Shown here: positions 6,961 to 62,925 of the stretch, piece after piece
How positions within the stretch are numbered: the first letter of the stretch is position 1
Layout: each line of letters starts with the position of its first letter
Assembly (NCBI GenBank): GCA_023511615.1
Contig: JAIMBL010000003.1
Location: 1-64,000 of the forward strand
Length of the DNA stretch: 64,000 bases
DNA from: Leptolyngbyaceae cyanobacterium HOT.MB2.61
Lineage (GTDB): Bacteria > Cyanobacteriota > Cyanobacteriia > Leptolyngbyales > Leptolyngbyaceae
Direction of reading: 5' to 3'
Translations under genes and position numbers: made by a program
Notes under the pieces: generated by a model
What the model was told of the DNA's origin: nothing
What the model saw: only the letters and a program-made list of their open reading frames with translations
Database searches by the model: none

Positions 6961-7093
6961 TGCTTTAAGTAAAATAGCAATCCTATCTGGATTGTGGAAA
7001 GGGACTCCGATGGAATCTCTTTTCACGAAGTCTTCTCTTTTCACAAATCATACGGAACCCGGATGGTAAAATAGCACTATCTTAGCCTCCCTT

Positions 7094-7490
7094 TCACCAG
7101 TGAAAAAGGGTGGGCTGACAGATGGCTTCTGGCATCGCTGAAAGGGTGACCCATCGTCTGGCCAGGGTTTCCTCCAACTTAGCTAAGGACTCAAACTTGC
7201 GATTGACGAGAGGTTTATCACTTAATGACCACAGGCGTTCTGCCGGCTGGAGTTCAGGAGAATCAGGCGGCAAGAACTCAACGTGGAGACCCTCTGGGAT
7301 TGGCCCTCTGGGATTGGGACGTTGTCCTCGCTTTGACCAATGATGGGTTTGAGTCCCAAGCAATGTTTATCAAACGCCCAGACTTCGATGTCTGCCCCTG
7401 GATATTGCCAACTCAATTGTTCAACTCGCTGGGGCAATTTTTTTAAAGCTGCTTGAGCCACTTCGTTTGCCTGGGCATGACGGGGGCAAG
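7094..7490 (-). pseudogene. IS630-family transposase relic, frameshifted and internally deleted
   Basis: Two minus-strand frames together recall an IS630-type DDE transposase. The upstream part (about 7340-7490) encodes ADIEVWAFDKHCLGLKPI, which aligns with the first catalytic Asp region (ADxEVWAxDEHRLGLKPI). The downstream part (7094-7363) encodes KRGQRP fused to PEGLHVEFLPPDSPELQPAE and RLWSLSDKPLVNR, the third-catalytic-acid region (normally PPYSPELQPAERLW). The roughly 80 residues that should lie between KRGQRP and PEGLH, including the second catalytic Asp, are missing, and a frame change separates the two parts. The element cannot be active. It sits just downstream of devC, where devA would be expected. 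Confidence 0.7.
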
Positions 7491-7587
7491 GGCGTTGCCC
7501 CCAGGCAGGGGGTCACCCCCTCCACCCCCAAAACCATCTTTAATTTAATTGCACTCAAATTTAATTGCACTCAGCTACTTATAACAA

Positions 7588-8748
7588 CTAAAAAATATCA
7601 GCTGGGTCTGCGTCTTGAACCTTGCGGACGGCGATCGCACCGGAAATGAGGCACATCATGACCGTTAAACAGAAAACCAGAATTGCCCTGGCGGTTGTCA
7701 TACCAATGGGTAGAGAAGTTGCATTTTGAGTTAGTTTATACAATCCGATGGAAAGGAAAAATCCAGGGATATACCCTAAAACCGAAAGGATGAGAGCTTC
7801 CTGAAAGACCACCGATAGTAGATAAAGGTTTTTGTAACCCATTGCCTTTAATGTGGCATATTCTGCCAGATGGTCTGTGACATCGGTGTAGAGAATCTGG
7901 TAAACAATAACTGTACCAACGACAAAGCCGATCGCCGCTCCCAGGGTAAAAATGTAGCCAATGGCGGTGCTGTCTTTCCAGTATTTCTGTTCAAATTCAA
8001 TAAATTCCTGTTTCGTTAAAACTCTAACGTCCCTGGTTACATCTTCCATATCCCGCTTCAGGGCACTCACCACTTTCTGAACATCGGCTCCGGGCTTTAG
8101 CTTGATTGAGCCTGCATCAATGTGCCCCGGTTTGCGTCTGCTAAAGATACGAAGAAAGTTCAGATCGCTGGTAATAAAGTTTCCATCGGCTCCAAAGGAA
8201 GCTCCCAGACTGAATAGCCCCCCCACGGTGACCCGCCGACCGTCGATTTCCGTGATTACGGGTTTTCCTTCGTTGAATAGCTTTGCGATTGGACCAAATT
8301 CCTCTCTTGATTTATCGTCAAACAGCACCACATCGGGAAACCGGATGGGATCAAGATCAGGCAGAATTTCGGGGCCAAATACAGGATTTGCCGGGTCAAA
8401 GGCGATCGCCAGAATGCTGCGCGTATTGCGATTCACCGGGTTTTTCCAAAAAGCAAATCCCAGGTAGATGGGGCTGACCGATTCAACCCCTTCATAGCCC
8501 AGCGCCTGGTACAGGCGACGCTGGGAAAAACTACGCATTGCAATCAGCGCTGTTGATTGCGGACTGATTAAAAACACATCCCCTTTCAGGTTCCGGTGCA
8601 GCCGCACGGCACTGTCAAACAATGCATCCTGAAACCCCATTTGAACGAACATCAAAATAACCGCAAATCCAATTCCTGCAAGAGCAACCAGAAGGCGGAT
8701 GGGTTCTCTTTTCAGTTGTAACCAGGCAAGGGGAATGGCAAACATCAC
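7588..8748 (-). CDS. devC: DevC-family ABC exporter permease
   Basis: DevC is the membrane subunit of DevBCA-type exporters. In heterocystous species one paralogue exports heterocyst glycolipids; non-heterocystous cyanobacteria keep others of less clear substrate. The 386-aa sequence has the FtsX/MacB-like layout: one N-terminal membrane helix (about 15-40, LLVALAGIGFAVILMFVQMG), a large periplasmic domain (about 45-260) and three C-terminal helices (about 265-375). The IPLAWLQLKREPIRLLVAL opening is typical of DevC. Its ATG at 8748 overlaps the devB stop by 4 bp, so the two are translationally coupled. The usual third gene, devA (ATPase), is absent downstream, where an IS630 relic is found instead. 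Confidence 0.88.
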   Translation of the reverse strand: MMFAIPLAWLQLKREPIRLLVALAGIGFAVILMFVQMGFQDALFDSAVRLHRNLKGDVFLISPQSTALIAMRSFSQRRLYQALGYEGVESVSPIYLGFAFWKNPVNRNTRSILAIAFDPANPVFGPEILPDLDPIRFPDVVLFDDKSREEFGPIAKLFNEGKPVITEIDGRRVTVGGLFSLGASFGADGNFITSDLNFLRIFSRRKPGHIDAGSIKLKPGADVQKVVSALKRDMEDVTRDVRVLTKQEFIEFEQKYWKDSTAIGYIFTLGAAIGFVVGTVIVYQILYTDVTDHLAEYATLKAMGYKNLYLLSVVFQEALILSVLGYIPGFFLSIGLYKLTQNATSLPIGMTTARAILVFCLTVMMCLISGAIAVRKVQDADPADIF

Positions 8749-42768: not shown

Positions 42769-43040
42769 GGGGGGAGGGGAGAGGAGGAGGGGAATAGGAA
42801 GTGGAGGGTGATGAGGTGATGCTCTTTTATTCCTCCTGGCGTGCATAAACAGGCAATGAAGTAACTCCGGCCTGGATATGAAGATTACTTGAAGTTCCGG
42901 ATTCATTTGCCATTGCTTAACTTTTGTTGGCGTTCTCTTAACCCGCGATCGCTACGGTATTGTGGTGTCCGTAAATTCACGGGTGCGATCGTGCAATTCC
43001 GATTCCTCCTGCTGCTCCGCTTCGAGGTTCCATTCAAGCC

Positions 43041-43158
43041 ATATAGCTCTACACAAATGCGTTAGGGCAATCAGGTTTAAGGGAGTTTGGGGGCGGTGCC
43101 TCCAGCCAGGGGCTTCCACCCCCGCACTCCGTCCTAACTACCATGACTACCGCTATAT
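43041..43158. repeat. Diverged full-length family B palindromic element
   Basis: ATATAGCTCTAC at the left end and GACTACCGCTATAT at the right are imperfect inverted repeats. The core has GGGGGCGGTGCCTCC, AGGGGCTTCCACCCCC and GTCCTAACTACC, paralleling the element at 17158-17271. It ends 28 bp before the nucleotidase start. The rest of 42769-43186 contains nothing recognised. Confidence 0.6.
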
Positions 43159-43186
43159 CTGTTCATTCATATCCAAAGCAATACCC

Positions 43187-45283
43187 ATGTTGTCTCAAAA
43201 GCCTTCTGAGATTAGACCTCTACTTCGTTGTTCCCACCTGCTGTTGGCTTCAAGCCTCACCCTGGCAGGAGTGCTGGTTCCCAATCCGGCTAAAGCTTTT
43301 ACTCTCAATCTGCTCCACTTCAGTGATGGCGAATCTTCCCTGCTCACCCGCACCGCCCCTGCAACACCAACAACTCCAGCCTTTCAGTACAGCGGTGTTG
43401 GCCTGTTCGCGGACCTTATTGATCGCCAGCGTAACGCCAGCAACACCGATTTCGACTTGCTGGTAACGGCAGGTGACAACTTCCTCGCCGGGCCTCAATT
43501 TGAAGCCAGCCTGCAATTGCCCGTTGGCCAGCCCTTCTATGATACGCGGGCACTGGAACTGTTCAACATCGATGTGGGAGGCATTGGCAACCACGAATTT
43601 GACTTTGGGCCTGATGTCCTGGCTCGCTTTATTGACCCAGACGGCAACGGTGTTGGCTTCCGTCCGTTTGTTTCTGCTAACCTGATTATTCCAGACAGCA
43701 GTCCCTTAAGAGGCCTGATTCAACCCAGCACTATCGTTACCAAAACGGTCAATGGAGTTGAAGAACGCGTTGGGGTTGTTGGCGTCACAACTCCACTGCT
43801 GCGCAGCATCTCCAGCCCTGGAAATATCGGAACCATCGGAGATGCATCGAACACACCCGGTTTTAATGACCTGGTGAATGCCGTTCAAGCAGAAGTGAAT
43901 AACCTGACTAGCCAGGGAGTTGATAAAATCGTTCTGGTTTCTCACCTGCAAAGCATCAGCGAAGAGCAAGTTCTGGCAGGCAGATTGCAAGGTGTTGATA
44001 TTATCGTGGCAGCGGGTAGTGATACTCGTCTGGCTAATCCCGACGATCCTCTACTACCGCTGGGTACTACCGAAACAGCAGTTCCTTCTTATCCTCAGAT
44101 TTACAACCCGCAAACGGGTCAGCGGGTTAACAGTCTGGCTGACTTACCCGCAGGAGTCGATCCTGTATTGCTTGTTTCTACCGATGGTGAATACAAGTAC
44201 CTCGGTAACTTGCAGGTAGAGTTTGAAAACGGCAGAGTTGTTAGCATCCTGGAACCGGGTAGTGGTCCCAAGCGTAACACTGACCTGGATGGACTGACTC
44301 CCCGCTCTGACCTGGTGAGTGAAGTGCAGAACCCGGTGAGCGCATTTGTCGATGACTTGAGACGAACAGCCGTTGGCGTGACCAATGTACCCCTTGATAG
44401 CGTGCGCACCAACGTTCGCTCCAGAAGTACCCTGGCTGGAAGCCTGATTGCTGATGCCATTCGCAATGCGGCGCAGGATGGAGCTCCTAGTGTTGGGCTG
44501 GATCCCGCCAAAATTCTTGTGGGGATTCAAAACGGGGGCGGCATCCGCAACGATCGCCGCTTCAACCCTGGTGATACCATTAGCGAGTTTGACACCTTCG
44601 ACGTTCTGCCCTTCTCTAACTTTGTCTCAGTCGTCACTGACATCACCGCTGGTGAGCTATTGGAAATCCTGGAGCGTTCTGTAGCTTCCCAAACTGCACC
44701 GGACACGGGTGGGGGTGGTCAGTTCCTGCAACTGTCTGGACTGGAAGTCGTTTATGACGTGACTCAACCGGCACAGGTTGTCACCGCAGCCGGTGAAATT
44801 ACCGCAGCGGGCTCCCGCATTCTCAGCATTTTGCTTGACCCGGACAACGATCGCACCGGGCAGTTTTTGTTCGATGTGGCGCAGGGTGGTTTTCTGGTCG
44901 ATCCCACTCAGCCCCTGTTTGACCTGGCAACGATTGATTTCACCGCTCGTGGAGGTGACAACTTCGCAACCCTGGCAAACATTCCTCAGACTCGTAAGTT
45001 CACCATTGCTGGCCTGACCTACCAGGCCGCACTGGAGCAATACATCCGTCAGGATCTCCAGGGCACCATTGATGCCGCCGACATTCCCAGCGGTGAAGGA
45101 ATTCGGGTACGGGATGTGACATCTTCAGTTGGTCCTGCTACCGGAGGACAGGTTATTGTTGCTCCCGGAGACAATACGGAAGCCATCCCCGAACCCACAA
45201 CTATGTTGGGTGTGTTAACCGCTGGTCTGGGCCTGGGGTATATGAAGCGCCGTCAGGCAAAGCGGAAAGAGGTGGGGGGCTAG
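43187..45283 (+). CDS. Metallophosphatase/5'-nucleotidase family protein with PEP-CTERM sorting signal
   Basis: This 698-aa exported protein begins at the ATG at 43187, giving a signal peptide (HLLLASSLTLAGVLVPNPAKA); upstream in-frame codons would bury it. The N-terminal metallophosphatase domain (about 35-350) has TAGDNFLAGP and GIGNHEFDFGPD, the metal-binding motifs of UshA-like enzymes. The first DxH motif is altered to LLHFSDGES. The 5'-nucleotidase C-terminal domain (about 400-640) has NGGGIRNDRRF and TARGGDNF. The end (IPEPTTMLGVLTAGLGLGYM plus RRQAKRK) is a PEP-CTERM sorting signal, so the protein is probably processed by an exosortase and placed at the cell surface. It likely hydrolyses extracellular nucleotides or phosphoesters. 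Confidence 0.85.
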   Translation: MLSQKPSEIRPLLRCSHLLLASSLTLAGVLVPNPAKAFTLNLLHFSDGESSLLTRTAPATPTTPAFQYSGVGLFADLIDRQRNASNTDFDLLVTAGDNFLAGPQFEASLQLPVGQPFYDTRALELFNIDVGGIGNHEFDFGPDVLARFIDPDGNGVGFRPFVSANLIIPDSSPLRGLIQPSTIVTKTVNGVEERVGVVGVTTPLLRSISSPGNIGTIGDASNTPGFNDLVNAVQAEVNNLTSQGVDKIVLVSHLQSISEEQVLAGRLQGVDIIVAAGSDTRLANPDDPLLPLGTTETAVPSYPQIYNPQTGQRVNSLADLPAGVDPVLLVSTDGEYKYLGNLQVEFENGRVVSILEPGSGPKRNTDLDGLTPRSDLVSEVQNPVSAFVDDLRRTAVGVTNVPLDSVRTNVRSRSTLAGSLIADAIRNAAQDGAPSVGLDPAKILVGIQNGGGIRNDRRFNPGDTISEFDTFDVLPFSNFVSVVTDITAGELLEILERSVASQTAPDTGGGGQFLQLSGLEVVYDVTQPAQVVTAAGEITAAGSRILSILLDPDNDRTGQFLFDVAQGGFLVDPTQPLFDLATIDFTARGGDNFATLANIPQTRKFTIAGLTYQAALEQYIRQDLQGTIDAADIPSGEGIRVRDVTSSVGPATGGQVIVAPGDNTEAIPEPTTMLGVLTAGLGLGYMKRRQAKRKEVGG

Positions 45284-45329: not shown

Positions 45330-45387
45330 GGGCGGGTTTTGCGAACGAAACCTGGATCAAGCAGGAGTTTCGCAACAAAACCCGCTC
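45330..45387. terminator. Bidirectional terminator between convergent genes
   Basis: GGCGGGTTTTGCGAACGAAAC (two parts, 45331-45351) can pair with GTTTCGCAACAAAACCCGC (45368-45386) around a short loop. An ATTTTT run follows on the plus side. It sits exactly between the stops at 45283 and 45388 of convergent genes, so a terminator for both directions is the natural reading. Confidence 0.7.
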
Positions 45388-48300
45388 CTATTTTTGGACA
45401 ATCTGACAGAAGAACTTTTCCAGGGCTCTAACGCAGGTAAGGTCGTTGTAGATTAAATCACTGCGTTCCTGTTGCTTCTGCCGAATTTGAGCCCGGTATT
45501 CAGGATCTAAACCCAGTTTGACAGCGATCGCTACAAAGTCATTCTCACTATTTGCAATCATTTCGGTCATGCCCATGACTTTCAAAATTGCGCAGGCATG
45601 CCGTCCTCGCATGAATTCGCCGGGACAGGTGAGGACGGGTAAGCCGCAGGCGATCGCTTCAAATACGGTATTTCCGCCGCCCCAGCCAAAGTTGTCCAGC
45701 ATCACATCGGAAACACTGTTCAGTCCCCAGAAACCCAACTGGTTCTGACGAGGCACAATTACGCAATAATCATTGCTATTCAATCCTTTTGCAGCAAATG
45801 CCCGCCCTAGTCGCTGGCGAAACTGTTCTGCCAGGTCGCGATCACTGGAGGCGATAAAGGCAAACTGGGCCTGGGGTACCTGATGGGCAATGTCTGCAAA
45901 GATATGGTCGTACTGGGGTAAATACTTGAACAGGGATTGGGAAGAAAGGTAAACAACCGCATCTTGCCGCAGGCCGAAGTCTTTGCGGGTGTGGGGTAGG
46001 GACGGCACTCGCGGGCGAGCATAGCAGAGTCCGGTATTGGGCAACCGAATTAAGGTTTCTGAGTAATGATCCTGGGCGTTTTCTGGCTCCATCAGATCGC
46101 TGGAGAGGTAGTAGTCGATGGTGGGCAGGCCGGATGTAACGGGATGTCCCCAGGCGGTGCATTGGACTGGAGCCAGCCTTAACCCAGCAATTTGGGTCGT
46201 GAGCGGGTCCATGCCAATGTCCGTAAAGATCAAAACGTGTAACTGATCAGCCTCAATCTGGTGACAAACCGCTTCCAGCTCATTGGGAAAGTGGTAGAAG
46301 CGATCGCTATACAACTGAAATTGGCGGGTAATCTGGTCTGCCAGTTGCCCGGTGTGATAACTGTAAATTTCAAACTGCTGCCGATTCATGGGTTTGATCC
46401 AGCCCAGAGCCCACTTCCCGCCGTTGTGATTGCGGAGGTGGGCGGATAGGAAGCCAATGCGGATTTTAGAGCGGGGAGGGGTGGATGGAGAAAGAGCAGT
46501 GCTTTTATTCCCGTCCCATTGGGGGTAATTGGCGGCCATGACCTGATGCACGTATTCTCCATAGCGGCTCTGGAGTTCGCGATCGTTGCGACACTGGTAC
46601 TGGAGGTAAAAGTTTGTACGCCATTGCAACCCTTTGAGGGCCTGTTGTTGATGTTCTGAAGTTTGTAAATCAATATGCTGAATCAGGTTTGTCAGTCCCT
46701 GGGTGAAGCGATCGCGGTAATGCTCAATTTCACTGGTGGTGTTGTATAGCAGTGGCAGGGTGCGCCATTGTTCAAATTCCCAGACGGGATTGTTGGGAAA
46801 CTGAACAGCGGCTTCATGGGCAGCAGCAATGGCGTCCTGAGTATACCCAGCATTTTGAAGGGAGGTGATGCGATAAAGATGGAGAGTCTCGTTCTGGGGA
46901 TAGTACTGAAGAGCCTGCTGGCAAATTTCTGCAGCTAAACGATTCTGGGCTTGAAAGCAGTAGGCATTGGCCAGGTTGATGAATACGGAGTCAGCGATCG
47001 CTCCCAGGTTGGGTTGCAGTTGCACGTAGCGCCTGTATTGAGTGACGGCTTCTGAATAGTCGCCCCGAAACAGGGCCGCATCGGCCAGAAACAGTGACGC
47101 CTGTTCGAGATCGTTTTTTGCTTCGCAGGCAGTCCCTAGTCCTTCTAAAGCATCAGGATTAGCAGGTTTGAGGGAGAGGGCAGCCTGAAAAACAGGGATG
47201 GCTTCATCGGGTTTCCCCTGCTGGTTCAAAACATTCCCCAGACCCACATAGCCACTAACATCATTGGGATTGGCAGCAATTTCCTGGCGATAGATCATCT
47301 CGGCTTGAGCCAGCTCTCCGGATTGAACGAGGCATTGTCCCAGACACTCATAGGCAGGCAGGCTAGTAGGGTCAGTTTGAATGGCGGTTCGATAGGTTTG
47401 AATGGCCTGCTGCAACTCTCCCATCTTTTCAAATAGCATTCCCAATTCAATCGAAATCTCAGCTTGAAAATGATTCAGCTTCAATGCCTGGGAAAGCATC
47501 TCTAATGCTTCTGGATACCGCTCAATTTCGGAATAGAGAGTCCCCAGATTGAATAAAGCATCAACATCCTGGGGATTGAGTGATAACACTTCTCGATACT
47601 TTTGTTCCGCTTTCAGCAATGGTTCCCTGACCCAGTTCACAATTTGGGGATACTGTCTATATTCCTTCAGGTGAATGGATTCGTATTGGGCTATTGCTTC
47701 CGCAGCTTGATTTTTAAGTTGCTGAATGGTTTGCTGGATCGTTTGCAATCTGTCTTCAGGTGCAGATGAATTGGCAACAAGTTTTTCTTGTACAACCTGA
47801 CGATAAAAAGTTTCCAGAGCATCAACGCAAGTTTTGTCTTCAAACAGCCGAGAATGGTGCTGCTGTATTTTCTGACGAATGCTTGTTCGATAGTCCGGGT
47901 CTAAACCTAACCGGACGGCGATCGCGACAAACTCTGCTTCATTCGTGGCAATGGTTTCAGTGATGCCCATCGTTTTCAAAATCCCGCAGGCGTGATGCCC
48001 CCGCATAAATTCACCGGGACAGGTCACGACTGGTAGACCACAGGCGATCGCGTCAAATACGGTATTGCCACCACTCCAGCCAAAGGTATCAAGCAGTACG
48101 TCAGAAACAGAATTCAATCCCCAAAAGCCCAGTTGATCCTGACGGGGAATCATCACACAGAAGTCTTCGCTATTCAGGCCAACGGTAGCAAATGCCTGTT
48201 TGAGACGTTGTTGAAATTGCTCCGTTACTTGAGGACTGTTCTGACTTACCAGAAAAGCAAATTGCGCCTGGGGAATCTGACGGGCTATCTCTGCAAAAAC

Positions 48301-50880
48301 AAAGTCGTACTGTGGCAGGTATTTGAACAGGGATTGGCTGGAGAGATAAACAATGGCATCGTTTCGCAACCCAAAATCCTCGCGGGTGTGGGGCAGGGGA
48401 GGAATATCGGGTTGGGCATAGCAAAGCCCCGTATTGGGCAATGGAATCAGAGTTTCGCAGTAGTGTTCCTGAGCATGGTTGGGTTCCATCTGCTCACTGG
48501 ACAGGTAGTAATCTATGGTTGGAAGTCCTGTTGTGATGGGATGGCCCCAACCGCTGCACTGGACAGGCGCTAAGCGTAAGGCGGCCATCTGGGTGGTAAG
48601 TGGCTCCATGCCCACATCTGCATATACCAGAATGTGCAGGTTATCGGCACGAATTTGCTGGCATACCGCCTCTAAGTTTTTGGGAATGTGGTAGAAGCGA
48701 TCGCTATCCAGGCTGAACTGGCGAGTAACGGAGTCCGCCACTTCCCCAGTATGGTAGGTGTAAATTTCAAACTGCTGGCGATCGCTGTGTCGCAGCCAGC
48801 CAGCGGTCATTCTGGCAACTACGTGTTCACGAAAGAAACTGGAAACATAACCAACGCGAATTTTGCCATTCCCTTCCAAATCAGGCATGGGGAGTGGTTG
48901 TACCCAGTGGGGATAGTTTGCCGCCATGACTCGATGGACATGCTCTCCATACTGGATCTGGAGTAACTTATCGTTGCGGCACTGGTATTGCACATAAAAA
49001 TTCGTTCGCCACCAGGTTCCCATCAATGCCTGCCAGGTCGCTGTGGGAGTTTCTAAGCGAGTGTTTTGGACGAGTTCAGCCAATCCCTGCGTAAACCGTT
49101 CTCGATAGTAATCAATTTCAGCAGATGAGGTGTAGAGAATGGGAAAGGTGCGCCACTGCTCAAATTGCCAGGCCGGAGCGGTGGGAAACTGGAGGGCGGC
49201 TTCCTGAGCAGCAGTGATCGCGGCCTGGGTGTAGCCACTATCCTGCAAACTAATAATTCGAGCAATGTGCAGCAACTCGTTGTTGGGATGGTGCTCGATT
49301 GCTCGCTGATAAATTTCGACGGCTGCACTGTCCTGCCCTGCTCTCCGGCAGGCTTCTGCCAGATTGAGGTAGGTTTGGGCAGCAATGGTTTCTGGGTGGG
49401 GATGCTGTTCCAGATAATAGTTGTACTGCTGAATCGCTTCCGCAAAATTCTTCCGATACAGGGCCGCTTCTGCACAATAAAAGCTGGCCTGCCAGGATTC
49501 TCCTTTTGCCATCAATGCCGTTCCCATCCCCTGGAGGGCATCGGGATGGGTGGCCTGAAGAGAAAGGGCTTTTTGATAGGCAGCGATCGCCCGATCAAAC
49601 TGCTGTTGCTTGATGAAACAATTGCCTAAACCAAGCTGACTGTTAATGTTGTCTGGGTTTGCAGCGACCGCCTGCTGGTAGATCGCTTCTGCCTGTGCAA
49701 CCTCTCCCAGTTGAATGAGCAGTTTACCCAAATGCTCATAGGCTGGAATAAAGGTAGGGTCGAGTTCAATCGCTTTCTGGTAATGCTGGATGGCCTGGGC
49801 GTAGTTGTGCAACTTCTCATAAACTCGCCCCAGTTCACCATAAATGACGGCCTGCGATTCGTTGAGCTTAAGCGCCTGAAACAACATTTCCAGGGCTTTT
49901 TCATACTGCTCCTGTTCAGCATAAAGGGTTCCCAGGCTGTAGTAAGCCTCAAGATCTGAGGGATTCCAGCGCAGCACTTCGTGATATTTCGCCTTTGCCT
50001 GGAGCAATGGTTTCTTGACCCAGTTCACAATTTCTGGATACTGCCCGTACTTTTGCAAGTAGGTGGAGTTGTAATGGGCGATCGCCACCGCTGCTTCGAC
50101 TTTCAGACGGTGAATCAGTTGTTGCCTTTCCTGTATTTCCAGCGCTTGCATCGCTTGCAGAAAGGACTTCTGCCGTGCCTGTTTCAGGATTTCTGAGGGA
50201 TAGGATTCTGGGCAATGATTGTCCCAACTCAAAACCTGCAACCCATTCCAGAACGTCGAGTGAGCAAAGCTTTGCGTCGGTAAATCTAACAGCAATTTGC
50301 ACTGGGGATGGGCACTCATGAAATCCCAGATGGCCTGTTGAGTGGCTTCTGAGTTGCGGTTGGCACAAACAATCAAAGCTTGCTCAGATAGAAAGGGTTT
50401 GACGAGGAGCAAACCCAGCAATTGCGATCGATAATCGGAGGCAGCGTCGTAGAAGTACAGCCCGATGGGTTTTCGGTCCTCCACCGTAGCCAAGTCGCGA
50501 AAGAACTCTTCAAAACTTTGCAGGCAAAACAGCACCTGCTCATCAATCCCAAACTGGGTCAAATGGTCACTCAATTGCACCAGGTTAGTTTCAAATGGGT
50601 CAAACTCAGAAAAATTATCAACTGCATAGGCCAACTTTTCTGGATGGTTGAGCAAGGCACCAATCAGACTGGCGCCCTGAAAACAGCCCACTTCACAGTA
50701 CACTTCTTCCGGCTCCAGGCAGTCCACTGCAAAGTTGAGCAACTGCAACAGGCTAGGGGTTGCCATGCCATTCACTTGTTCTAGTACGGCTGCAAACTGC
50801 TCGTTCCTGGGCGTGATGGATTCCAGCCCCCAGTTTTCGTAGAGGCCAGGCAGATGGGCGCTAAACCGTTGATAATCCAT
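45388..50880 (-). CDS. Giant protein: methyltransferase-like domain plus two tandem TPR/O-GlcNAc-transferase (GT41) modules
   Basis: This 1830-aa protein has five regions. Residues about 1-240 resemble a class I methyltransferase of the Methyltransf_24 type (PEEVYCEVGCFQGASLIGAL; IGLYFYDAASDYRSQLLGLL). Residues about 255-640 hold TPRs (LEAYYSLGTLYAEQEQYEKA; AQAIQHYQKAIELDPTFIPA). About 665-1040 is a SPINDLY/OGT-like GT41 domain (IRVGYVSSFFREHVV; GHPITTGLPTIDYYLSSEQ; GGNTVFDAIACGLPVVTCPG). Then a second TPR block (about 1055-1430) and a second GT41 domain (about 1465-1830) repeat the same order. The two modules are about 797 residues apart and strongly similar, so this is an internal tandem duplication. 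It would glycosylate proteins or glycans in the cytoplasm; the target is unknown. Confidence 0.85.
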   Translation of the reverse strand: MDYQRFSAHLPGLYENWGLESITPRNEQFAAVLEQVNGMATPSLLQLLNFAVDCLEPEEVYCEVGCFQGASLIGALLNHPEKLAYAVDNFSEFDPFETNLVQLSDHLTQFGIDEQVLFCLQSFEEFFRDLATVEDRKPIGLYFYDAASDYRSQLLGLLLVKPFLSEQALIVCANRNSEATQQAIWDFMSAHPQCKLLLDLPTQSFAHSTFWNGLQVLSWDNHCPESYPSEILKQARQKSFLQAMQALEIQERQQLIHRLKVEAAVAIAHYNSTYLQKYGQYPEIVNWVKKPLLQAKAKYHEVLRWNPSDLEAYYSLGTLYAEQEQYEKALEMLFQALKLNESQAVIYGELGRVYEKLHNYAQAIQHYQKAIELDPTFIPAYEHLGKLLIQLGEVAQAEAIYQQAVAANPDNINSQLGLGNCFIKQQQFDRAIAAYQKALSLQATHPDALQGMGTALMAKGESWQASFYCAEAALYRKNFAEAIQQYNYYLEQHPHPETIAAQTYLNLAEACRRAGQDSAAVEIYQRAIEHHPNNELLHIARIISLQDSGYTQAAITAAQEAALQFPTAPAWQFEQWRTFPILYTSSAEIDYYRERFTQGLAELVQNTRLETPTATWQALMGTWWRTNFYVQYQCRNDKLLQIQYGEHVHRVMAANYPHWVQPLPMPDLEGNGKIRVGYVSSFFREHVVARMTAGWLRHSDRQQFEIYTYHTGEVADSVTRQFSLDSDRFYHIPKNLEAVCQQIRADNLHILVYADVGMEPLTTQMAALRLAPVQCSGWGHPITTGLPTIDYYLSSEQMEPNHAQEHYCETLIPLPNTGLCYAQPDIPPLPHTREDFGLRNDAIVYLSSQSLFKYLPQYDFVFAEIARQIPQAQFAFLVSQNSPQVTEQFQQRLKQAFATVGLNSEDFCVMIPRQDQLGFWGLNSVSDVLLDTFGWSGGNTVFDAIACGLPVVTCPGEFMRGHHACGILKTMGITETIATNEAEFVAIAVRLGLDPDYRTSIRQKIQQHHSRLFEDKTCVDALETFYRQVVQEKLVANSSAPEDRLQTIQQTIQQLKNQAAEAIAQYESIHLKEYRQYPQIVNWVREPLLKAEQKYREVLSLNPQDVDALFNLGTLYSEIERYPEALEMLSQALKLNHFQAEISIELGMLFEKMGELQQAIQTYRTAIQTDPTSLPAYECLGQCLVQSGELAQAEMIYRQEIAANPNDVSGYVGLGNVLNQQGKPDEAIPVFQAALSLKPANPDALEGLGTACEAKNDLEQASLFLADAALFRGDYSEAVTQYRRYVQLQPNLGAIADSVFINLANAYCFQAQNRLAAEICQQALQYYPQNETLHLYRITSLQNAGYTQDAIAAAHEAAVQFPNNPVWEFEQWRTLPLLYNTTSEIEHYRDRFTQGLTNLIQHIDLQTSEHQQQALKGLQWRTNFYLQYQCRNDRELQSRYGEYVHQVMAANYPQWDGNKSTALSPSTPPRSKIRIGFLSAHLRNHNGGKWALGWIKPMNRQQFEIYSYHTGQLADQITRQFQLYSDRFYHFPNELEAVCHQIEADQLHVLIFTDIGMDPLTTQIAGLRLAPVQCTAWGHPVTSGLPTIDYYLSSDLMEPENAQDHYSETLIRLPNTGLCYARPRVPSLPHTRKDFGLRQDAVVYLSSQSLFKYLPQYDHIFADIAHQVPQAQFAFIASSDRDLAEQFRQRLGRAFAAKGLNSNDYCVIVPRQNQLGFWGLNSVSDVMLDNFGWGGGNTVFEAIACGLPVLTCPGEFMRGRHACAILKVMGMTEMIANSENDFVAIAVKLGLDPEYRAQIRQKQQERSDLIYNDLTCVRALEKFFCQIVQK

Positions 50881-61017: not shown

Positions 61018-62925
61018 ATGGTTGTGATTGGAGCCAGCATGTGGGGATGGTTGAAAGGTTTTCGGTGCCCCTGGAAAGAACTTGTCAGACCAATCGTTAG
61101 TGTTCCGTTAGCAGCCGTTACAATTCATTGGGCTGCACCTGAAGAAGGCACGATGAAGTCTGCGATCGCCCTTTCCCAACCACTCCTTCTGAGTCAGGCA
61201 ACGCAACCTGCCCTATCCCAGGGAACCCAAATTCTCCTCAATGGCCGTACCCTGCCAGTCGCCTGGAGTCAGTGGCGGGTAGCCGGTTCCACTCGCACGG
61301 GCATCAGTGATGCCGGGTTGATGCAAGCGATGGGGATAGAGCTTTTGAATACTGAGGATGCCAGCCGTCAACCTGTGCAATGGTTCTCCGATCCCAGAAC
61401 TAACCCGCTTCTGCTGCCAACCCACCTGACGGGAACCCTTCGCTATCTGGATATTACCGACTTTGCCCGCCGGATGGGTTGGCAGATGCAGACTAACGGC
61501 ACGACCCTGCAAATCACCTCAGTCCCGGCCAGGGTGCAGTCGGTGCGATTGGGCAAGCAGCCCTGGGGCGATCGCATCGTGATTGAGCTCGACCAGCCCG
61601 CAACCTGGCAGGTTGATCGGCAAAGCCAGGAATTTGCACTCACCCTCAATGCCCAACTGGATCCATCCCTGCTCAGTCCCCAAACCAATCCCACCACTGC
61701 TCCCAACACTCCCAGTCCAGGGAGCCAGCTTGCCTTTCTTCTATCCCAACCGAGTCCCAATCAAACCCAACTTCGACTCCGCATTCCCCTTAGCCTTCGC
61801 CCCCGCGTCTGGAGTTTGCCCAATCCCAACCGCTTAATCGTAGATGTCCGTTCTGATTCACTGGTAGAGCGAAATATTGTCTGGGCACCCGGTCTGCGCT
61901 GGCGCTCCCAAACTCTGGAACTGGGTGGCACTCGCTTTCCAGTCGTGTGGCTGGCGGTGAATCCCCGCCACTCAGGGATTGGACTCAAACCAATCCTGCC
62001 TAATCCCAGTACGATGACGGGCATTGCCCCCCTGCCGCAGACTGCCCGGCTGGCCCAAGCCGCAGCCGCCGTCAACGCTGGCTTCTTCAACCGTAATAAT
62101 CAACTTCCCCTGGGAGCTGTTCGCCTGGATGGACGCTGGCTCTCCGGCCCCATTCTCAATCGGGGAGCGATCGCCTGGAATCCTTCAGGATCATTCAAAA
62201 TAGACCGCCTCAGTTTGCAGGAAACCTTGATTACCCAAACCGGACAACGCCTCCCTCTCACTCACCTCAACAGCGGCTATATTCAAGCGGGTATTGCCCG
62301 CTATACCCCGGATTGGGGACCGACCTACACCCCCCTCTCAGATAATGAAATTCTCGTCCTCATCCAAAACAATCGGATTCTCAGCCAACAATCAGTTCCT
62401 ACCGCAGGTAGCCAGGCCGTTCCAATTCCAGCCAATGGCTACCTCCTGGTACTGCGCTCTAACCGCACAGCAGCCACCAGTCTCCCGGTTGGGTCTTCCC
62501 TGAGGCTCGAAAGTGTCACTACCCCCCCTGATTTCATCTCCTATCCCCAAATTGTGGCTGCCGGGCCGCTCCTATTACAAAACCGCCAGATTGTTCTAGA
62601 CCCCCAGGCGGAAAAATTCAGTCGGGCTTTTGCGATTGAAAAGGCCAGCCGAAGCGCGATCGGGCAAACTGCAGAGGGCCACCTCATCATTGCTACTGTC
62701 CACACTGACATCCGAGGAGTCGGAGCAACCTTAACGGATATTGCCCAAATCATGCAGCAGCTTGGAGCCATCAACGCCCTCAATTTAGATGGTGGTAGCT
62801 CCACAACCCTCTATTTGGGCGGACAAATCCTCAATCGCCCCCCTCGAACCGTTGCTCGCGTCCACAACGGCATCGGCATCTTTGTGCAGCCTGCCCCCCC
62901 TCCCTTACCATCTAATCCTTACTGA
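61018..62925 (+). CDS. Phosphodiester glycosidase (NAGPA) domain protein with AMIN-like region
   Basis: This is a 635-aa probable envelope protein. The N-terminus has a hydrophobic stretch (about 25-45, PIVSVPLAAVTIHWAA) that may be an anchor or signal. An AMIN-like beta domain follows (about 190-280, RVQSVRLGKQPWGDRIVIEL; VWSLPNPNRLIVDVRS), a fold that targets proteins to peptidoglycan. The C-terminal half (about 330-625) is the NAGPA/DUF2233 phosphodiester glycosidase domain, with AAVNAGFFNRNNQLPLGAVR, YPQIVAAGPLLLQNRQ and NALNLDGGSSTTLYLGG. The natural substrate in cyanobacteria is unknown; cell-wall glycans are plausible. It starts at the ATG at 61018, with copy 3 of the hairpin element just upstream. 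Confidence 0.82.
   Translation: MVVIGASMWGWLKGFRCPWKELVRPIVSVPLAAVTIHWAAPEEGTMKSAIALSQPLLLSQATQPALSQGTQILLNGRTLPVAWSQWRVAGSTRTGISDAGLMQAMGIELLNTEDASRQPVQWFSDPRTNPLLLPTHLTGTLRYLDITDFARRMGWQMQTNGTTLQITSVPARVQSVRLGKQPWGDRIVIELDQPATWQVDRQSQEFALTLNAQLDPSLLSPQTNPTTAPNTPSPGSQLAFLLSQPSPNQTQLRLRIPLSLRPRVWSLPNPNRLIVDVRSDSLVERNIVWAPGLRWRSQTLELGGTRFPVVWLAVNPRHSGIGLKPILPNPSTMTGIAPLPQTARLAQAAAAVNAGFFNRNNQLPLGAVRLDGRWLSGPILNRGAIAWNPSGSFKIDRLSLQETLITQTGQRLPLTHLNSGYIQAGIARYTPDWGPTYTPLSDNEILVLIQNNRILSQQSVPTAGSQAVPIPANGYLLVLRSNRTAATSLPVGSSLRLESVTTPPDFISYPQIVAAGPLLLQNRQIVLDPQAEKFSRAFAIEKASRSAIGQTAEGHLIIATVHTDIRGVGATLTDIAQIMQQLGAINALNLDGGSSTTLYLGGQILNRPPRTVARVHNGIGIFVQPAPPPLPSNPY

Follow-up and report, generated by a model that had tools for sequence, protein, structure and literature searches.

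A gene with two TPR-GT41 modules and its neighbours

The window, by which we mean the whole 64-kb stretch of DNA that was analysed, contains on its minus strand (45388..50880) a gene that starts with ATG and encodes 1830 residues in a single stop-free frame. The order of its parts is head, TPR, GT41, TPR and GT41. In Pfam searches, the head by itself matched Methyltransf_24 (28.8 bits against a cut-off of 26.3), each module contained Glyco_transf_41 (119.7 and 98.2 bits, cut-off 25), and TPR repeats were present in both modules, with many TPR models matched. A methyltransferase-like head followed by two collinear TPR-GT41 modules had been proposed in the first-pass annotation, and the frame and the Pfam matches bear this out. 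The head comprises residues 1-250 (50131..50880, minus strand) and carries the EVGCFQGASL motif at residue 63. Module 1 (residues 251-1047; 47740..50130, minus strand) and module 2 (residues 1048-1830; 45391..47739, minus strand) each consist of a pre-TPR insert, a TPR block and a GT41 domain. The inserts at residues 251-300 (49981..50130, minus strand) and 1048-1096 (47593..47739, minus strand) contain QYPEIVNWVKKPLL and QYPQIVNWVREPLL, respectively, and the GT41 domains were placed at residues 673-1047 (47740..48864, minus strand) and 1472-1830 (45391..46467, minus strand).

A gene for a 5'-nucleotidase (PF02872) lies at 42962-45283 on the plus strand and is convergent with the 1830-residue GT41 gene. 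The C-terminus of the nucleotidase, IPEPTTMLGVLTAGLGLGYMKRRQ, resembles a PEP-CTERM sorting tail. Between the ends of the two convergent genes, at 45332..45385, an inverted repeat, GCGGGTTTTG / CAAAACCCGC, was noted by eye, and it may be a bidirectional terminator. Near the GT41 gene, at 61018-62925 on the plus strand, a protein is encoded that contains a phosphodiester glycosidase (NAGPA) domain. A conserved neighbourhood with chlH was considered and rejected as chance, as GT41 genes occurred near chlH in two distant genomes in another orientation or at another spacing. The remaining chlH loci retrieved from relatives showed no GT41 gene near chlH.

The anchor segments of the two modules had been reported to be about 797 residues apart, and we measured a spacing of 796, with QYPEIVNWVKKPLL at residue 280 and QYPQIVNWVREPLL at residue 1076. 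A self-comparison of the protein was performed, for which an off-diagonal at about 797 residues had been set beforehand as the test, and the signal was present at 796-799. Residues 249-659 lay on off-diagonal 796 (55% identity, score 1166), residues 666-881 on 799 (66% identity, score 823), and residues 878-1032 on 798 (66% identity, score 566). The best diagonal outside the repeat scored no more than 133, and its source was TPR self-similarity. In a BLASTP comparison, the modules were 59.8% identical over 774 columns (966 bits). A missed stop or an assembly misjoin of two genes is hardly credible as the source of this gene. Misassembly can affect tandem repeats, and the host genome (5.29 Mb) is split over 383 contigs. 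However, the frame is open over 5.5 kb without a stop, and an independent one-frame GT41 tandem exists in another genome (G153). At the DNA level, moreover, the alignable parts of the modules share only about 68% identity, which rules out an artefact of assembly duplication.

Catalytic domains and the methyltransferase-like head

Lys842 of OGT has a catalytic role (PMC4683255). When the catalytic residues of both GT41 domains were compared, as the first-pass annotation had proposed, Lys853 of module 1 and Lys1652 of module 2 were both found to align with this residue. We then defined 88 GT41 columns as conserved, with 117 other GT41 domains as reference and 93% as the minimum; module 1 retained 84 and module 2 retained 83 of these positions. 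The AF2 model of module 2 (pLDDT 91.8) consisted of a TPR superhelix and a GT-B fold, and its best Foldseek matches were SPINDLY and OGT (E about 1e-32). Module 1, by its 60% identity to the modelled module 2, is predicted to have the same GT-B fold and TPR superhelix. Where OGT has the motif GHTT, each module has GNTV; therefore, donor and acceptor specificity are not transferable from OGT. The NCBIfam NGTferase equivalog, which represents HMW1C-type N-glycosyltransferases, scored 117.8 bits, below its cut-off of 1000. As far as conservation shows, the residues that a working OGT/SPINDLY-type transferase should have are retained in each of the two GT41 domains.

The earlier annotation had allowed for two active modules, or for one active and one regulatory module. 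It is unlikely that one GT41 module is catalytic and the other is a substrate-binding or regulatory scaffold. Duplicated enzymes often retain a single active copy, and each module has a change of its own: module 1 alone has H in place of R962, which 98% of the family keeps, and module 2 alone has M1774 where 96% of the family has Thr. However, the catalytic Lys is present in both modules, and since both keep the conserved residues of the family equally, the regulatory option found no support. Identity to a single-module relative was also nearly equal (61.3 and 59.8% for modules 1 and 2), which indicates that neither module is drifting.

The head was modelled by AF2 with a pLDDT of 85, and in Foldseek it was closest to cation-dependent O-methyltransferases (E about 1e-9), with matches that included catechol O-methyltransferase, SafC and a Synechocystis enzyme. 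A comparison of the head with solved methyltransferases by sequence gave no meaningful PDB match. The SAM-binding loop is kept, with E63, G65 and G69 conserved. For the metal site (Asp, Asp, Asp/Asn), we assumed the ligands of CCoAOMT and paired them through a hand alignment with a Methyltransf_3 protein of the host, L184, in which IDADK...IDN was set against YDGAH...VDD; a profile alignment of the head with the same protein by hhalign covered the SAM loop only, with weak scores. On this hand pairing, together with an alignment of 69 family heads, the site at codons 145-174 (50359..50448, minus strand) appears degenerate: D145 is kept, H148 is replaced by S, D173 by A, and D174 by N, so that one of the three ligands is lost and the inferred metal site is incomplete. 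W177, replaced by S, also departs from intact family heads.

The same site was surveyed in the 69 family heads. The full inferred metal triad was present in 25, including the head of the host paralogue on contig C32, and 44 did not have all three ligands. E63, G65, Y150 and R151 were nearly invariant. Thus, many heads are without the inferred metal site yet keep the SAM loop and the DYR motif. An active methyltransferase head, with which the protein would both glycosylate and methylate its target or the glycan on it, is doubtful. The retained SAM-binding loop, the fold and the 25 related heads with a full inferred triad would agree with it, but the changes at D173, H148 and W177 depart from the intact heads. 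The description of the head as methyltransferase-like holds for family profile and fold, whereas methyl transfer has probably been lost. Taken with the Pfam, AF2 and Foldseek results, the site residues suggest that the head is probably catalytically impaired and repurposed as a non-methylating domain.

Relatives and the origin of the doubling

The host is a cyanobacterium, and its genome contains two further head-TPR-GT41 genes, which encode 948 residues on C32 and 1181 residues on C318, the latter with an extra C-terminal Methyltransf_11 domain. The head was detected in 41 of 390 genomes of the class at E<=1e-20, and the head-carrying frames in the 390 genomes reached at most about 1230 residues, the 1830-residue gene excepted. 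When genome contigs were scanned and 79 loci re-analysed, 43 ORFs that combine head and GT41 were obtained. We found no second protein with a head and two complete GT41 domains among the 390 class genomes or these 43 ORFs, in a screen that may miss some; one candidate (L130) was rejected because a single GT41 hit had been split in two. Literature searches found no paper describing a head with a double TPR-GT41 architecture. The first-pass annotation had called a methyltransferase-headed tandem unusual and had named many proteins of the same full architecture as the observation that would speak against it. No such proteins appeared in the class genomes or the contig scan, and the doubling is indeed rare, whereas the head on a TPR-GT41 protein is not. 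Only the doubling is unusual, because the single-copy head-TPR-GT41 form is common in cyanobacteria and is found twice more in the host itself.

Tandems of other kinds were also found. In a GT41 survey of the class, the best five candidates per genome were scored, and the longest frames among the matches listed were rescanned; among these matches, at least one other tandem of two like modules was present. It is a headless protein of 1577 residues (L082, 6694-11424) in G153, from another cyanobacterial family. Its modules are mutual sisters in a different GT41 branch, which indicates an independent duplication. An open frame of at least 2634 residues in Rhizonema sp. PD37 (L137) contains two GT41 domains of different subfamilies (186 and 596 bits). 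Arrays of GT41 genes, most with the methyltransferase-like head, were observed as well, with three genes in G053 (L073, 2910-12091) and four in a row in Prochloron (L125, 2101-14635).

The phylogeny of the two modules, which the first-pass annotation had suggested as a check, was examined with a tree of 44 GT41 domains. The modules were sisters (support 96/81), and the pair joined L070, a single-module head-TPR-GT41 protein (support 98/99). The sisterhood was repeated in a quick tree of 119 rows (SH-aLRT 91). Of the sequences gathered, the two modules and L070 were the sole carriers of a pre-TPR insert that reads IVNWVxxPLL or closely similar, and the repeat diagonal begins at residue 249, the end of the head. 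Since the modules are sisters and share the insert only with L070, an internal duplication that left a single head is suggested; most simply, the insert, TPR block and GT41 domain would have been duplicated as one unit. The outcome would be no different if the entire gene had been doubled and the second head then lost. A gene in a genome of the same genus pairs with the C32 copy of the host and not with the 1830-residue gene, and no such gene was found beside chlH in that genome. For these reasons, the 1830-residue gene is lineage-specific within the genomes examined.

Likely target, proposed working and comparison with known systems

According to a review (PMC12288463), Ogt genes adjoin pilA in many cyanobacteria, and Ogt is involved in PilA glycosylation. 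In 13 of 65 loci, with one locus counted twice because it came from two collections, a pilin with the motif GFTL[IV]ELL lay within 6 kb of the head-bearing gene, against an expectation of 0.36 derived from the host density of three such pilins in 5.29 Mb; related loci were pooled for this comparison, and the pilin density used was that of one genome. The host paralogue on C318 lies 176 bp from a pilin motif, and the other neighbour of the pilin is a second GT41 gene. At this locus (L009, 366-10179), the pilin gene at 7059-7601 lies between two GT41 genes of different branches, and two further class I methyltransferase-like genes are beside them. No pilin motif was found near the 1830-residue gene in the 64-kb window, and the assignment of its target therefore rests on the paralogues and the family. 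The target of the 1830-residue protein is most likely a pilin or another exported surface protein.

An active tandem glycosyltransferase with a target that is neither a pilin nor a surface protein, such as an intracellular regulator as in eukaryotic O-GlcNAc signalling, is the less probable reading, at a chance that we would still call appreciable. The lack of a nearby pilin and the unrelated neighbours, chlH and the 5'-nucleotidase, would fit such a target, and, as PMC4683255 reports, an OGT homologue of Synechococcus is connected with phosphorus retention and aggregation. However, pilin genes are enriched across the family, and glycosylation of PilA itself is reported (PMC12288463).

The gene belongs to a common family of protein glycosyltransferases and is set apart by an internal duplication that is rare there. 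As the best explanation overall, we favour, with some confidence, an internal duplication in the head-TPR-GT41 family with two working GT41 sites, a non-methylating head and a pilin or surface target. The duplication would have been a lineage-specific event within this common cyanobacterial family. Each TPR superhelix would hold a stretch of the target polypeptide and feed it to its own GT41 site, and each site would attach one sugar, taken from a nucleotide-sugar donor, to a side chain, most likely that of Ser or Thr. With its modules doubled, the chain may thereby act on one kind of target at two sites or on two of its subunits, and a pilin or surface protein would be modified in the cytoplasm ahead of export. 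The head would be a SAM-binding, docking or structural domain. We give little credence to the version in which two independently loaded TPR-GT41 units jointly attach two sugars to a single pilin-like target or to two neighbouring subunits, with the head in SAM sensing or docking.

Provided that both sites work, a single natural chain would combine two OGT-like catalytic units, and it could serve to examine whether TPR-GT41 enzymes act on several sites per encounter. The points that concern the whole family, namely the inferred loss of the metal site in many heads and the linkage to pilins, are of interest comparable to that of the tandem. Given this linkage, pilin glycosylation in filamentous cyanobacteria would be a direct test.

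The closest known systems are the single-copy proteins with a Methyltransf_24 head, TPR and GT41, which share domains and their order with the 1830-residue protein at mostly 40-53% identity. Examples are L070 (G040), L010 (the C32 paralogue), L106 of Fischerella muscicola PCC 7414 and L107 of Trichocoleus sp. FACHB-40. They differ in having one TPR-GT41 module and about 950-1070 residues, and some of their heads have the full inferred metal triad; L070 resembles the 1830-residue protein further in its pre-TPR insert. The G153 tandem likewise has two TPR-GT41 units in one frame that are sisters to each other, but a methyltransferase-like head was not detected in it and it belongs to a different GT41 branch. 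The Rhizonema protein also has two GT41 domains in a single frame, but these come from different subfamilies, and no head is present in the part seen. The cyanobacterial Ogt beside pilA is a GT41 glycosyltransferase like the 1830-residue protein; its gene adjoins pilA, whereas the 1830-residue gene does not, and the C318 paralogue of the host does sit at a pilin locus. The 741-residue GT41 protein beside the host pilin is from a distant branch (25% identity) and, unlike the 1830-residue protein, has no head. Human OGT, Arabidopsis SPINDLY and Thermobaculum terrenum OGT resemble each module in TPR superhelix, GT-B fold and catalytic Lys equivalent, but they have a single module without a methyltransferase-like head, and OGT has GHTT where the 1830-residue protein has GNTV. 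HMW1C-type N-glycosyltransferases belong to the same CAZy family, GT41, and match the catalytic domain by sequence, but at 46-58 bits the match is weaker than that of OGT/SPINDLY.
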